From Sulfuricella sp. (lineage in GTDB: Bacteria > Pseudomonadota > Gammaproteobacteria > Burkholderiales > Sulfuricellaceae): 64,000 nucleotides of DNA. The notes beneath the pieces were generated by a model. The model did no database searches, was not told where the DNA came from, and was given only the letters and a program-made list of their open reading frames with translations. A program made the translations under genes and the position numbers. This document shows positions 6,027 through 12,419 of this stretch, piece after piece; positions within the stretch are counted from its first letter, which is position 1, and each line of letters starts with the position of its first letter. Location of the stretch: NCBI GenBank assembly GCA_023266195.1, contig JAHFRP010000003.1:1-64000 (forward strand), in the 5' to 3' direction.

Positions 6027-7757
6027 ATGCAAAACAAATCATCCGAAAATCTGATACTGCTCGATACCGGCCTGCAATCGGCCGGGTGGAACGCCCGCTT
6101 CGACTGCACCTGGCTGGAGCTCCACGCCGCCGGCGAACGTCCCGGCCTGCTGCGCTTTTATCGCAGCCTGCCGAGCGTCAGCCTGGGGCGGCATCAGGCG
6201 CCGGAACATGAAATCCGCGCCGATTATTGCCGGAAAAAAAACGTCGAGATCGTGCGCCGGGTCAGCGGCGGCGGCGCGCTCTATGTCGATGAAAATCAGC
6301 TCGGACTCAGCCTGATCATGCGTCGCCCCGCGGCCTGGATCGGCTTCGGGATGGGACAAATGCTTGCCGTTTTCTGCGCGGCGATCGCCGACGGACTCTC
6401 CCGGCTCGGCATCAACACGGTTTACAAGGCGCCCAACGACCTGGAAATCGATGGCCGCAAACTGGCCTCTGCGTTCATCGCCATCGAAGGCGACGCCATC
6501 CTGCTGCACGCCACCCTGCTCGGCGAGGTCGATATCCAGACCCTGCTGGAAGCGCTACGCGCGCCGACCGAAAAACTGACCGTCACTGGGCTGGAGAGCG
6601 CGCGGCAGCGGCTGATAACGGTCAAGGAAGTGCTTGGCGAAATTCCGCCCGATGCGGTGCTGCAGCAGGCATTATGCGAAGGACTGGCTGGTGTGGTGGG
6701 TGGGATATTGCAGACAGGGAAGGCAACAACGTGGCGGACGCTTTCTTTCGCAAGTATTGCCCCGCCAGACACACCCTCACCCCAGCCCTCTCCCGCCTGC
6801 GGGAGAGGGGGAAAATCTCCGCTCGTATCCAAGCACGTGAACAATGAACCATCCGGCCGACTAACCACCATGCTCGAAGCCCTGCACAAGACCCCGGGCG
6901 GCGTACTGCGCGTGCGCCTGTGGCCGGATGCGGCCGGGCACTTCATCGACCGGATTCGCTTTGCCGGCGACCTCCACCTGCATCCGGCCAACGCGCTGGA
7001 GCGCCTGCAGCAAACACTGGCCGGGTTGTCGCTCGTACAGGCGGAAGCGGCCGTTTCCGCCTTTTTCGACCAGCATCCCTGCGACCTGCTCGGTTTCTCC
7101 GCCGACGACATCCGCCACGTGCTACGGCTGGCCATCGACAAGCTGGCGCAGCAAAAACTGATGGGCTTGAGCGCAGACCAGGCCAACCGCCTGATGGTGA
7201 CGGGCGAAGGGAACGCCGAAGCCGTCCTGTCCCGCGCCTCGGTCATGCTGCTGCCCTACTGCGCCAAACCCGCGTGGTGCAAGTGGCGACATCAGGACGA
7301 TTGCGTCGAATGTGGCAAGTGCGAAGTGGGCGACGCCTACCGCATGGCGCGCGAACGCAACATGCCGGTGACCACCATCACCGATTATGAACACCTCACC
7401 GCCACGCTCGGCGCGATGAAAGCCGACGGCATCGAGGCCTACGTCGGTGCCTGCTGCAACCAGTTCTTCGTCAAGCGCCACCATGCGTTCGAACAGGCCG
7501 GCATGGGCGCCGTGCTGATGGACATCAGCGGCGCCAACTGCTATGAGCTGAAACAGGAAGAAGCCGCCTATGCCGGCCGGTTCCAGGCCGAGGCCGAACT
7601 CGATGCGGATTTGATGGAGCGGGTGATGCTGCGGGTGCCAGTCCTGCCCGTTGATCAAGTTCACGACGCAACTCCTCCGCTTGTCGTTGCGACCCGGCCG
7701 CGTGCAAAATACATCATTCCCGTGATCCCTTTGACGAAAAAACGAAAGTCCGCATGA
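6027..7757 (+). CDS. lipoate-protein ligase / LplB-type domain / DUF116 fusion
   Basis: A 576-residue three-part protein. Residues 1 to about 235 form a lipoate-protein ligase A domain, with RRVSGGGAL (77-85) and KAPNDLE...GRKLASA, where Lys145 matches the lipoyl-AMP lysine position. Residues about 283-375 resemble the accessory C-terminal domain of bacterial lipoate ligases (R-F-x-GD pattern). Residues about 400-540 form a DUF116-like domain with Cys412, 418, 426, 429, 432, 476 and 477, a likely Fe-S site. The linker (about 248-264) is translated from an intergenic-type repeat. It probably lipoylates a carrier protein; the DUF116 part suggests a linked redox role. It overlaps the next gene by four bases. 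Which carrier it serves is unknown, because no LbpA or GcvH gene is visible. Confidence 0.8.
   Translation: MQNKSSENLILLDTGLQSAGWNARFDCTWLELHAAGERPGLLRFYRSLPSVSLGRHQAPEHEIRADYCRKKNVEIVRRVSGGGALYVDENQLGLSLIMRRPAAWIGFGMGQMLAVFCAAIADGLSRLGINTVYKAPNDLEIDGRKLASAFIAIEGDAILLHATLLGEVDIQTLLEALRAPTEKLTVTGLESARQRLITVKEVLGEIPPDAVLQQALCEGLAGVVGGILQTGKATTWRTLSFASIAPPDTPSPQPSPACGRGGKSPLVSKHVNNEPSGRLTTMLEALHKTPGGVLRVRLWPDAAGHFIDRIRFAGDLHLHPANALERLQQTLAGLSLVQAEAAVSAFFDQHPCDLLGFSADDIRHVLRLAIDKLAQQKLMGLSADQANRLMVTGEGNAEAVLSRASVMLLPYCAKPAWCKWRHQDDCVECGKCEVGDAYRMARERNMPVTTITDYEHLTATLGAMKADGIEAYVGACCNQFFVKRHHAFEQAGMGAVLMDISGANCYELKQEEAAYAGRFQAEAELDADLMERVMLRVPVLPVDQVHDATPPLVVATRPRAKYIIPVIPLTKKRKSA
6773..6814. repeat. 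REP-like palindrome embedded in frame in a coding region
   Basis: The unit ccctctcccgc / gcgggagaggg (6785-6809) with the flank accctcaccc is the same family as the palindromes at 2740-2831. Here it lies inside the lipoate-ligase/DUF116 gene, in frame, giving the proline-rich linker PSPQPSPACGRGG between two domains. Confidence 0.85.
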
Positions 7758-8239
7758 AACGCATCGACCGGCAGCTCCTCACCTCACTTTCCAGTCTGGC
7801 GGCGTCCGCACCACGCCTGCGGGCGCACCACAACCTGCACCCCGAGCTGGACGACCCGGTCCAGCGCCTGTGCATCGCGATGGAGCCGGGCACCTATGTC
7901 CGCCCGCACCGGCACGCCGACCCGGCAACCTGGGAGATCCTGCTGGTGCTGTCCGGCGCGGTGGTGCTCCTGGTATTCGACGAAGCGGGCCAGGTGACGG
8001 AGCGGACCGAACTCTCCGCCTGCGGCGAAGTCGGCGCGGTGGAAATCCCCGCCCATACCTGGCATGCGGTGGCCTCCACCCAGCCCGGCACGGTGGTATT
8101 CGAGGTCAAGCAGGGGCCGTACCGGCCGATTGCCGAAGCCAACTATGCGCCGTGGTCGCCGGCGGAAGGAGAAGCGGCACGCAAACTCGCGGCATGGTAC
8201 AGCGTGGCCCGCCAGGGCGATGCCATACCCCAGTTGTAA
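7754..8239 (+). CDS. WbuC-type cupin fold metalloprotein
   Basis: A 161-residue cupin. The metal-binding pattern His52-x-His54...Glu61 (PHRHADPATWE) and a second-motif histidine near 101-104 (PAHTWHAV) are visible. The protein matches the WbuC family by its N-terminal histidine-rich segment and the conserved stretch from RPHRH to the C-terminal GPYRP. WbuC relatives are best known from polysaccharide clusters, but here the gene is translationally coupled (ATGA overlap) to the lipoate-ligase/DUF116 fusion, which suggests a role on a small metabolite of that pathway. The reaction is unknown. No signal peptide is present, so it is cytoplasmic. Confidence 0.8.
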   Translation: MKRIDRQLLTSLSSLAASAPRLRAHHNLHPELDDPVQRLCIAMEPGTYVRPHRHADPATWEILLVLSGAVVLLVFDEAGQVTERTELSACGEVGAVEIPAHTWHAVASTQPGTVVFEVKQGPYRPIAEANYAPWSPAEGEAARKLAAWYSVARQGDAIPQL

Positions 8240-9116: not shown

Positions 9117-9164
9117 ACACAAGACTATGGGTAATTTTGCACCCATACACACAACATCTTGTGG
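9117..9164 (+). promoter_or_regulatory. pair of NrdR boxes upstream of nrdD
   Basis: The sequence acacaacatcttgtgg (9149-9164) matches the 16-bp NrdR consensus at most positions. A weaker copy, acacaagactatgggt (9117-9132), begins exactly 32 bp earlier, leaving 16 bp between boxes. Tandem boxes three helical turns apart are the hallmark of NrdR repression of ribonucleotide reductase genes. The rest of the 305-bp gap (8931-9235) shows no gene. Confidence 0.75.
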
Positions 9165-9235
9165 TTTATGATATTTGTCAACCAATTCTGGATTCACGGC
9201 AAATTCATGAACGGCAAGCACGCCAGGAGGAAGCA

Positions 9236-11281
9236 ATGACGGAACACGAGCCGCAAGGCGGCAGCATCAATCTGGTCTCTCTCTCCAAGGGAGTCCTCAA
9301 GCGCGACAACACCCTGGCGCCGTTCGATTCGGACAAGATCCGCTCCGCCATCCAGCGCGCCGGCGCGGCGACCGGCGAGCTCGACGCCAACGAAGCCTTC
9401 CTGCTCACCGCCCAGGTGGTCAAGGTGCTGATCCACAAGTTCCGCTCCGAGCCGCCCCACATCGAGAAAATCCAGGATGCGGTGGAGCAGGTGCTGATCT
9501 CCGCCAACCACCTCAAGACCGCCCGCGCCTACATCGTCTACCGCGAACAGCACACCAAGCTGCGCCAGGACCGCAAGACGGTGGTGGACGTGGAAAGCTC
9601 GATCAACGAATACCTCGACCAGATGGACTGGCGCGTCAACGCCAACGCCAACCAGGGCTATTCCCTGGGCGGCCTGATCCTCAACGTTTCCGGCAAGGTG
9701 GTGGCCAACTACTGGCTGAATCATGTCTATCCGCCCGAAGTCGGCGTCGCCCACCGCGAGGGCGACATCCACGTGCACGACCTCGACATGCTGGCCGGCT
9801 ACTGCGCCGGCTGGTCGCTGCGCACCCTGCTCAACGAAGGCCTCAACGGCGTGCCCGGCAAGGTCGAGGCCGGCCCGCCCAAGCACATGTCCTCCGCCGT
9901 CGGCCAGATCGTCAACTTCCTCGGCACCCTGCAGAACGAATGGGCCGGCGCGCAGGCGTTCAGCTCGTTCGACACCTACATGGCGCCGTTCATCCGCAAC
10001 GACAATCTGTCCTACGCCTGCGTCAAGCAATACATCCAGGAACTGATCTACAACCTCAACGTGCCGTCGCGCTGGGGCACGCAGACCCCATTCACCAACC
10101 TGACCTTCGACTGGGTGTGCCCGGAAGACCTGCGCGAACAGGTGCCGGTCATCGGCGGCAAGGAAATGCCGTTCGCCTACGGCGACCTGCAGGACGAGAT
10201 GGACATGATCAACCGCGCCTACATCGAGGTGATGACCAGGGGCGACGCCAAGGGGCGCGTGTTCACCTTCCCCATCCCGACCTACAACATGACGCCGGAT
10301 TTCCCGTGGGAATCGGAAAACGCCACCCTGCTGTTCGAGATGACCGCGAAATACGGCCTGCCCTATTTCCAGAACTTCATCAATTCCGAGCTCAAGCCGA
10401 ACATGGTGCGCTCGATGTGCTGCCGGTTGCAGCTCGACCTGCGCGAGCTCCTCAAGCGCGGCAACGGCCTGTTCGGCAGCGCCGAGCAGACCGGCTCGGT
10501 CGGCGTGGTCACCATCAACTGCGCCCGCCTGGGCTATCTCTACCAGGGCAACGAAGAAGCCCTGTTCGCCCGCCTCGACGAGCTGATGGAAATCGGCAAG
10601 AACAGCCTCGAAATCAAGCGCAAGGTGATCCAGCGCCACATGGACGCCGGCCTGTTCCCCTACACCAAGCGCTACCTCGGCACGCTGCGCAACCACTTCT
10701 CCACCCTGGGCGTGAACGGCATCAACGAAATGGTGCGCAACTTCACCCACGACGAGCACGACATCACCACCGAATTCGGCCACACCTTCGCGGTGCGCCT
10801 GCTCGACCACGTGCGCGCCAAGATGCTCGCCTTCCAGGAAGAAACCGGCCACATGTACAACCTCGAAGCCACGCCGGCGGAAGGCACCACCTACCGCTTC
10901 GCCAAGGAAGACCGCAAGCGCTTCGCCGACATCATCCAGGCCGGCACCAAGGAAATGCCCTACTACACCAACTCGTCGCAGCTGCCGGTCGGCTTCACCG
11001 ACGACCCGTTCGAAGCGCTGGAGCGGCAGGAGGAATTGCAGCGCAAATACACCGGCGGCACCGTGCTGCACCTCTACATGACCGAGCGCATCACCAGCGC
11101 CGAAGCCTGCAAAACGCTGGTGCGCCGCGCCCTGGAACGCTTCAGCCAGCCCTACATCACCATCACGCCGACCTTCTCGATCTGCCCCAAGCACGGCTAT
11201 CTCGACGGCGAGCACAAATTCTGCCCGAAATGCGACCAGGACCGCCTGGCCGAAAAACGCAAGAAACTGGCGGCCGCCTGA
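9236..11281 (+). CDS. nrdD: anaerobic (class III) ribonucleotide reductase, catalytic part
   Basis: A 681-residue subunit that reduces ribonucleoside triphosphates to dNTPs without oxygen. An ATP-cone regulatory domain occupies about residues 12-105. The catalytic barrel follows, with the paired cysteines Cys395-Cys396 (RSMCCRLQ) and the TGSVGVVTINCARLGYL region. The C-terminus ends with a CxxH...CxxC zinc-type site (Cys650, His653, Cys663, Cys666). The usual glycyl-radical loop after this site is missing; it is encoded by the next small gene. The ATG at 9236 has an ideal AGGAGGAA site; an in-frame ATG 99 bases earlier overlaps the NrdR box and was rejected. The gene is controlled by tandem NrdR boxes. 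Confidence 0.95.
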   Translation: MTEHEPQGGSINLVSLSKGVLKRDNTLAPFDSDKIRSAIQRAGAATGELDANEAFLLTAQVVKVLIHKFRSEPPHIEKIQDAVEQVLISANHLKTARAYIVYREQHTKLRQDRKTVVDVESSINEYLDQMDWRVNANANQGYSLGGLILNVSGKVVANYWLNHVYPPEVGVAHREGDIHVHDLDMLAGYCAGWSLRTLLNEGLNGVPGKVEAGPPKHMSSAVGQIVNFLGTLQNEWAGAQAFSSFDTYMAPFIRNDNLSYACVKQYIQELIYNLNVPSRWGTQTPFTNLTFDWVCPEDLREQVPVIGGKEMPFAYGDLQDEMDMINRAYIEVMTRGDAKGRVFTFPIPTYNMTPDFPWESENATLLFEMTAKYGLPYFQNFINSELKPNMVRSMCCRLQLDLRELLKRGNGLFGSAEQTGSVGVVTINCARLGYLYQGNEEALFARLDELMEIGKNSLEIKRKVIQRHMDAGLFPYTKRYLGTLRNHFSTLGVNGINEMVRNFTHDEHDITTEFGHTFAVRLLDHVRAKMLAFQEETGHMYNLEATPAEGTTYRFAKEDRKRFADIIQAGTKEMPYYTNSSQLPVGFTDDPFEALERQEELQRKYTGGTVLHLYMTERITSAEACKTLVRRALERFSQPYITITPTFSICPKHGYLDGEHKFCPKCDQDRLAEKRKKLAAA

Positions 11282-11314
11282 TTCCTGCCTTATAACTACG
11301 CAAAGGAGAACACC

Positions 11315-11509
11315 ATGAACGATCTGTCCCACCAAGCCCAACTGGAAACCGAAGAAATCCTGCTGACCGACGAAGAACGCCAGCCCTGCGAAGTATGGAC
11401 CCGCGTCATGGGCTACCACCGCCCGGTCGCTTCGTTCAACATCGGCAAGAAAGGCGAGCACAACGAGCGCCAGTATTTCCAGGAATGCCGCGCCAAGCTG
11501 GCGGCTTGA
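11315..11509 (+). CDS. separate glycyl-radical tail of NrdD
   Basis: A 64-residue protein that matches the extreme C-terminus of ordinary NrdD enzymes. The segment CEVWTRVMGYHRPVASFN (25-42) carries the RVxGYxRP pattern in which the glycine (Gly33) forms the radical, followed by NIGKKGEHNERQYF. It has its own ribosome site (AAAGGAGAA) 33 bp after the nrdD stop, so this is a true separate gene rather than an unnoticed frameshift. It would have to dock onto NrdD to complete the active site and be activated by NrdG, much as the free-standing glycyl-radical protein GrcA complements PflB. Such short 'anaerobic ribonucleotide reductase' ORFs are known beside NrdD in some proteobacteria. Confidence 0.85.
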   Translation: MNDLSHQAQLETEEILLTDEERQPCEVWTRVMGYHRPVASFNIGKKGEHNERQYFQECRAKLAA

Positions 11510-11531
11510 AAGCGATAGCAACGCTTCACAT

Positions 11532-11670
11532 GTAGGTTGGGTTCACCCTAAAGGGTACAAGAGCGGCTTTATCGCGTAACCCAACAAACCCAAAACTTCA
11601 AAACCAACAATTTGAAGGAGGATCGGGTTTGTTGGGTTACGGCGCAAAATGCGCGCCTAACCCAACCTAC
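11532..11670. repeat. 139-bp nested inverted repeat between the NrdD tail and nrdG
   Basis: The outer perfect 12-nt arms gtaggttgggtt (11532-11543) and aacccaacctac (11659-11670) enclose perfect 16-nt inner arms (11576-11591, starting gtaaccc, and 11625-11640, ending gggttac). There is no ORF inside. It has the build of a MITE-like dispersed element and lies directly before the nrdG start, so it may affect coupling of nrdD and nrdG expression. Confidence 0.85.
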
Positions 11671-11708
11671 ATGACCGCAGCTTGCGTAAGCAGTATCGCG
11701 ATCGCACC

Positions 11709-12419
11709 ATGCCTCCGACATCATCCAACCTCCAAATCGGCGGCCTCACCCCGCTGACCAGCACCGATTACCCCGGCTGCCTGGCGGCCGTGGTGTTCTG
11801 CCAGGGCTGTCCGTGGCGCTGCGGCTACTGCCACAATCCCCACCTGATTCCGCGCAGCGGCGAAAGCGCGCTGAACTGGCCCGGTGTGATGGACTTCCTG
11901 CGCCGCCGCCGAGGCCTGCTCGACGCGGTCGTCTTCAGCGGCGGCGAACCGACCCTGCAGGACGAGCTCCCCGCCGCCATCGAAGAAGCAAGCAGCCTCG
12001 GCTTCAAGATCGGCCTCCACACCGGCGGCACCTACCCCGCCCGCCTGGGCGCCGTGCTGCCGCTGCTGTCCTGGGTCGGCATGGACATCAAGGCCGAGTT
12101 CGCCGACTACGACCGCGTCACCGGCACACCGGCCAGCGGCGAGAAAGCGCGGGCCAGCGCCCAAATGCTGCTCGACAGCGGCGTCGCCCACGAATTCCGC
12201 ACCACGGTGCATCCGTTGTTCCATACCCGGGAATCCCTGCTGCGACTGGCGGAGGAACTGCGCGGCATGGACGCGCGCCACTACGTGCTGCAGGAATTTC
12301 GCCCGCAGGGCTGCGCGGACGAGGCTGTCGCCGCCTACCCCGCCCAGGAGCTGCTGGACGATGCGCTGTGCGACCGGATCGGCGCGATGTTTGACACTTT
12401 CTCCGTGCGGCGAGCATAA
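11709..12419 (+). CDS. nrdG: anaerobic ribonucleotide reductase activase (radical SAM)
   Basis: A 236-residue radical SAM enzyme that generates the glycyl radical on the NrdD tail. The cluster motif is Cys34-x3-Cys38-x2-Cys41 (GCPWRCGYCHN), followed by VVFSGGEPTLQ, the SAM-binding GGE motif. The sequence is of the NrdG2/YjjW-like type, longer than the roughly 155-residue E. coli NrdG. The ATG at 11709 follows the nested palindrome; an in-frame TTG at 11682 falls beside the repeat and was not preferred. Its place after nrdD and the radical-tail gene supports the assignment over other activase families. Confidence 0.9.
   Translation: MPPTSSNLQIGGLTPLTSTDYPGCLAAVVFCQGCPWRCGYCHNPHLIPRSGESALNWPGVMDFLRRRRGLLDAVVFSGGEPTLQDELPAAIEEASSLGFKIGLHTGGTYPARLGAVLPLLSWVGMDIKAEFADYDRVTGTPASGEKARASAQMLLDSGVAHEFRTTVHPLFHTRESLLRLAEELRGMDARHYVLQEFRPQGCADEAVAAYPAQELLDDALCDRIGAMFDTFSVRRA

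Follow-up and report, generated by a model that had tools for sequence, protein, structure and literature searches.

We describe here what is very likely a genuine two-chain class III ribonucleotide reductase, in which a large catalytic chain and a 64-residue glycyl-radical chain are the products of separate genes. The genes were found in a stretch of 64,000 nucleotides from Sulfuricella sp., referred to below as the window, and on sequence grounds NrdD seems to depend on the small chain as an obligate subunit. The locus comprises the following features:

9117..9181, + strand: candidate control region upstream of nrdD (consensus scan)
9236..11281, + strand: nrdD, catalytic chain of the class III ribonucleotide reductase (PF13597, positions 2–530 of 562, E value 3e-176)
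9290..9556, + strand: ATP-cone domain of nrdD (PF03477, residues 19–107, 79 bits)
10415..10426, + strand: MCCR finger-loop motif (residues 394–397), C395/C396 being the expected thiyl-radical site
11183..11233, + strand: putative C-terminal zinc-type site of the catalytic chain, CPKH...CPKC (residues 650–666)
11302..11308, + strand: AAAGGAG ribosome-binding site of the small gene (read from the sequence)
11315..11509, + strand: separate 64-residue glycyl-radical chain with RVMGYHRP (PF13597, positions 531–562; a separate gene in relatives)
11682..12419, + strand: nrdG, radical-SAM activase of the NrdG2 type (TIGR02495, 198 bits; PF04055)

As read from the open reading frames, nrdD opens with the ATG at 9236, closes with the TGA at 11279–11281 and encodes 681 residues. 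Its product exceeds the Pfam cut-offs for both the NRDD catalytic domain and the ATP-cone, as well as those for NF006126 (1149 bits) and TIGR02487, and NrdG is encoded nearby, the combination that marks a class III ribonucleotide reductase. The finger-loop cysteine is in place: the motif belongs to a class described in PMC9669993, and C395, C396 and R397 are invariant across two 34-row alignments. The initial annotation had nrdD ending just past a CxxH/CxxC zinc-type site, and this is indeed the case, with CPKH starting at residue 650 and CPKC at residue 663, both inside the last 32 residues; the reading of the frame revealed no glycyl-radical motif 3' of them within the window NrdD chain. The glycyl-radical loop is absent from this polypeptide and is found on a separate ORF, which agrees with the annotated 64-codon gene having its own ribosome site. 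This ORF runs from the ATG at 11315 to the stop at 11509, 33 nt past the nrdD stop, and contains CEVWTRVMGYHRP, in which Gly33 is the G of RVMGY (codon 11411–11413). Among Pfam families the small protein matches only PF13597 at an E-value threshold of 0.01, covering positions 531–562 of the 562 (E value 2e-7, over the cut-off), so that the two products jointly span nearly all of the NRDD positions. The genome itself, rated 100% complete, contains no second NrdD, and its two PF02867 matches are other ribonucleotide reductases; a second full-length copy making this one dispensable, an objection anticipated in the initial annotation, was rejected on these grounds.

Upstream of nrdD, a scan with NrdR-box and FNR/ANR consensus sequences returned candidate NrdR-box-like sites at 9117–9132 (5 mismatches) and 9149–9164 (3 mismatches), 32 bp apart, a candidate FNR/ANR-like site at 9168–9181 (2 mismatches), and two weaker NrdR-like matches. 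Between the small gene and nrdG, at 11530–11680, inverted-repeat-like sequence was noticed by eye (GTAGGTTGGGTT ... AACCCAACCTAC). Elsewhere in the window, positions 6027–7757 hold a long ORF that presumably resembles a fusion of a lipoate-ligase-type domain with a cysteine-rich one.

The same split, sought in related genomes as initially proposed, is widespread there. Small-protein matches were obtained in 33 of 61 genomes, the window's own included: 11 of the 12 genomes of the genus (the one without a match is 79% complete) and all 10 others of the family. Thirty of these matches came with loci, and all 30 were examined. The catalytic and radical ORFs are separate in 29, with gaps of +1 to +280 nt as measured to the last ATG before the motif; in the remaining one (G029) the radical gene and nrdG form a cassette approximately 9 kb from nrdD, with other genes between. 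All three frame relations between nrdD and the radical ORF occur among the relatives, the nrdD stop codon may be TAA, TAG or TGA, and in three genomes (G001, G020, G047) repeat-like sequence was seen by eye inside the gap. Some of the class-wide loci have overlapping ORFs, the smallest gap being -23, and in a Holosporaceae genome (G705) nrdD and the radical-nrdG cassette are on different contigs, no nrdD being present within 2 kb before the cassette.

At the class level NRDD was found in 29 of 281 genomes (21 split, 6 fused, 2 partial), and at the phylum level in 69 of 396 genomes, with a minimum of 16 split; many of the remaining ones are fused with an RRVCGYLG tail, the E. coli type. The order-level survey gave a match in 128 of 399 genomes, comprising 104 catalytic-only, 22 fused only, 1 partial and 1 with the radical segment alone. 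In 99 of the 104 the catalytic match ends at positions 528–540, and in 5 it continues through one stop codon into the radical segment; all 99 have at least one further short match beyond the long ones, which for many of them rests on the per-genome match count. In one genome (G819) a contig break parts the pair. Of 80 named loci, 74 are split, 4 have no catalytic gene in the stretch examined, and 2 are fused, namely those of Maricaulis (L134) and Massilia H-1 (L127), the latter with nrdD in several broken frames. Paracoccus denitrificans has a split NrdD, and the split is also present on plasmids of Sulfuricurvum kujiense, Azospira, Shinella and others, as well as on pHG1 of Cupriavidus necator H16 (676 aa + 66 aa), where both genes are annotated, the small one as nrdD. 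Some records already annotate the small gene, but only under that name. The nrdDG genes of pHG1 were reportedly described in 1999. The P. aeruginosa PA1920 product is listed in PMC12284477 as 76 kDa, approximately the size of a catalytic-only chain, which we regard as a lead only.

The small gene is followed within 400 nt by nrdG in 74 of 79 loci, which fits the idea that the small chain would be the substrate of NrdG. A possible start of the small gene is preceded by AGGA, GGAG or GAGG in 75 of 79 bacterial relatives versus a fraction of 0.11 of random windows, and its median dN/dS is 0.15 in bacteria, as calculated (for 79 bacterial and 62 viral sequences) only from pairs with pS of 0.15–0.70, which are not independent. 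Purifying selection and the ribosome-binding motif together support a real protein product, and the co-occurrence and conservation counts mean that chance does not explain the split. At the level of sequence, the comparison establishes a separate gene that accompanies nrdD almost constantly, evolves under purifying selection, is linked to nrdG and can be encoded away from nrdD.

Because the two ORFs of the window share a reading frame with a single TGA between them, it had to be considered that a mutation or a sequencing error in one genome had placed an in-frame stop in a normal fused nrdD. Nearly all close relatives, however, are split, with other frames, other gaps and any of the three stop codons, and in G029 the radical gene is encoded at a separate place; the error that the initial annotation had wished to see excluded was rejected on this variation, and we consider the chance of such a truncation negligible. 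Programmed stop-codon read-through or recoding, which would yield one joined chain, is hardly more credible. The radical motif does stand in the nrdD frame in 17 of 53 named rows, 16 of these with one to three intervening stop codons and the remaining one being the fused Maricaulis locus, but in the other 36 the motif is missing from that frame within the stretch read. The variable stop codon, the ribosome-binding motif ahead of the small start and the existence of lone copies of the radical gene, described below, likewise speak against a joined product. That the active enzyme would be assembled from two chains, as first suggested from the window alone, is strongly supported by the comparative evidence.

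Fused kin include the NrdD of Acidiphilium, Acidithiobacillus and Actinomyces oris. In a quick maximum-likelihood tree of 89 rows, calculated from the catalytic part with the radical columns left out, the split/fused label changes four times versus 10.5 in shuffles. The base of this tree is unresolved and long branches meet; it may be compatible with a single origin of the split, and it does not settle the number of splitting events. The fused Acidiphilium/Acidithiobacillus pair is nested among split rows, a position that suggests re-fusion. A phage nrdD from a viral contig (L342) has another radical motif (VYTRIVGYYRAVQNWN) and is also broken at the same place, which hints at a possible independent split event.

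The split enzyme has the ATP-cone (present in most), barrel, finger loop and zinc-type site of the fused NrdD of T4, Thermotoga maritima, Prevotella copri and E. coli, and the glycyl-radical motif and the NrdG partner are common to both. It differs in that the radical glycine is on another, separately translated chain. According to PMC11226230, the glycyl radical domain of P. copri NrdD consists of the zinc site and, after it, a buried loop bearing the radical glycine, and dATP renders the entire domain disordered; the break in split NrdD falls inside this domain, between zinc site and radical loop. The window pair was modelled with AlphaFold2 as one read-through chain using a diverse alignment, which resulted in a mean pLDDT of 84, with blocks of the radical segment (711–750) at 78–93 and the artificial join (681–710) at 52–65. 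The first model, for which the alignment contained closer relatives only, had residues 721–757 at pLDDT 30–41. A Foldseek search of the read-through model against the PDB ranked class III ribonucleotide reductases first, and the small-protein profile gave no match against PDB sequences. The model suggests that the radical segment can fill its usual place; having been built as one chain, it speaks to fit rather than to binding of a free chain.

In the proposed mechanism, the large chain would contribute the ATP-cone, the barrel, the MCCR finger loop and the zinc-type site, and the 64-residue chain would contribute the radical glycine. NrdG would take a hydrogen from Gly33 of the small chain, and this chain would dock beside the zinc site and the finger loop, in the place occupied by the C-terminal loop of fused NrdD. 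The radical would then move on to a finger-loop cysteine for catalysis. Because the oxygen-labile glycine sits on a cheap separate chain, a cleaved small chain could in principle be swapped for a new one while the 681-residue catalytic chain is kept. We infer docking, radical transfer and exchange after damage.

Several known systems share part of these characteristics. GrcA (YfiD) and T4 Y06I, which serve pyruvate formate-lyase as spare parts, are also small free-standing proteins with a glycyl-radical segment, the latter in a phage (PMC8683613). The small protein described here, unlike GrcA, matches the NrdD family and not the PFL-type family, and whereas GrcA is a spare for an enzyme with its own radical domain, no NrdD radical segment other than this chain was found in the genome. 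The small protein was therefore not assigned to the GrcA family, as there is no PFL-type match and the partner NrdD has no radical domain of its own to be replaced. In the split class II enzyme NrdJa+NrdJb of Pseudomonas aeruginosa a C-terminal cysteine-rich functional tail is likewise on its own gene; that enzyme is B12-dependent, however, and its tail re-reduces the active site and carries no radical (PMC5704485). Phage nrdD genes may also have their coding sequence in pieces, but the cases seen in PMC3653736 go back to introns, inteins, homing-endonuclease insertions or broken frames, with no conserved break before the radical loop. As a separate observation, NrdD in two of our genomes (G325, locus L061, and G164, loci L056/L057) is interrupted in frame after RWGTQ and before TPFTNLTF by insertions of 271 or 313 residues with the appearance of an intein, the L061 insertion having CVDAETECL as its first residues and TFVTGN as its last.

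The radical gene was also found alone. Viral contigs scanned with the small-protein alignment contained 210 relatives. None of the best 80 of these 210 loci has a catalytic NrdD or an NrdG in the DNA examined (tblastn, window proteins), and in 16 of 16 whole viral records chosen from the 80 (27–212 kb, which may themselves be fragments) NRDD matches were located only at about 530–562. A phage collection of 50,697 records yielded one weak hit, i.e., the lone gene is rare or absent there at that sensitivity. Ten proteins, eight of them neighbours or clusters of neighbours of lone genes, were compared with PHROGs. The neighbours of lone viral genes include endolysin, integrase, terminase, and portal or connector genes, and positions about 111–159 of phrog_4132 (179 positions, a family of unknown function) match all nine small radical proteins compared.

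In bacterial genomes, extra lone copies beside the paired copy were found in G012, G274, G754, G831, G892, G901 (two), G959 and G978, which is a lower bound since they were followed where match counts stood out. Three of them have the following positions:

L084 (genome G012), about 7683–7838: lone radical gene flanked by genes for an endolysin and an Rz-like spanin
L404 (genome G892), 2412–2621: lone radical gene flanked by genes for an endolysin and an Rz-like spanin
L403 (genome G959), 6754–6978: lone radical gene between two Rz-like ORFs just past an endolysin gene

For G892 and G959 the similarity to Rz is weak (E value 5e-5 to 8e-4). In G274 the lone gene shares a stretch with RecE- and RecT-like genes, and the surroundings in all four genomes look like prophages. 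The second copy of G831 is near an nrdG-like ORF (L103), some other extra copies have a plasmid-like context, and lone copies are also present on two Allochromatium plasmids.

Conservation was tabulated from rows anchored on the motif, one set with 65 viral rows and 4 orphans from plasmids or bacteria, the other with 79 bacterial rows; the construction of these sets fixes the anchoring-motif positions, and partly those of the search pattern, as conserved. Outside the search motif the viral copies keep their residues nearly as the bacterial ones do, and the median dN/dS of the viral lone copies, 0.20, indicates purifying selection. The ribosome-binding motif is less common there than in bacteria, being present in 47 of the 65 viral rows. 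No ORF passed the motif test in three viral loci (L194, L219, L220), and in two (L178, L209) V replaces the motif cysteine. The same viral collection was searched for the RRVCGYLG-type radical segment as a control, using a single-sequence query and hence with narrower reach; of the 22 loci found, 20 were examined, and in all 20 the segment is fused to an open frame of 576 aa or more. In the order survey, a second match occurred in 0 of 22 fused-only genomes versus a lone extra copy in at least 7 of 104 split genomes. By these two results, lone copies were seen only for the radical type that would find a vacant position in the host enzyme. Some phages encode a split NrdD themselves: the radical ORF is separate in at least 15 of 57 fetched loci, some of which are near-copies, and in L298 and L349 it does not directly follow nrdD. 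Some phage NrdD chains from viral contigs, e.g., L309, L312, L319 and L331, were seen to have an extra C-terminal domain with an APTL motif, which by eye resembles thioredoxin or glutaredoxin.

The small protein might be a GrcA-like spare, made in excess and exchanged after damage, with phage copies re-arming the host enzyme during infection; we judge the chances of this to be even. A radical chain in viral DNA devoid of catalytic NrdD, its purifying selection, the lone copies inside prophage lysis cassettes of three bacterial genomes, the exclusively fused control segments and the difference between split and fused-only genomes all argue for it. Against this, the phage proteins could instead inhibit the host enzyme, the viral records are contigs without assigned hosts and possibly fragments, the control had the narrower reach noted above, 7 of 104 against 0 of 22 is too small a difference to decide, and 50,697 phage records contained a single weak hit. 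Were the phage and prophage copies inhibitors, poisoning the class III enzyme of the host as dead-end radical chains, their location in late or lysis gene blocks would suit a takeover gene too. We nevertheless consider this improbable, since the viral copies keep their non-motif residues nearly like the bacterial ones, under purifying selection, as working parts would. The initial annotation had envisaged that a radical part damaged by oxygen could be replaced in the manner of GrcA and PflB; this is plausible, and the free-standing phage and prophage copies lend it indirect support.

A literature search, with most subscription papers outside its scope, turned up neither a split NrdD nor a spare part for this enzyme. 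In PMC8683613 only YfiD and Y06I are given as validated spare parts, others being regarded as possible, and the question posed there, whether other glycyl-radical enzymes have spare parts, becomes directly testable with these small proteins. Tractable bacteria for such a test are Cupriavidus necator H16 and Paracoccus denitrificans, both of which are split; nrdD and nrdG alone, expressed from a split species, should fail. In many genomes a working NrdD would depend on a gene of about 60 codons that is easy to miss, and the lone phage genes of PHROG 4132 would gain a function. On balanced odds, we propose that much of the Proteobacteria has an exchangeable radical subunit of class III ribonucleotide reductase, which has become a mobile spare part that phages and prophages carry on its own, in some cases within the lysis cassette, and plug into the split NrdD of the host, sustaining dNTP synthesis. 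If true, this would be the first known case, outside pyruvate formate-lyase, of a spare part serving a glycyl-radical enzyme.
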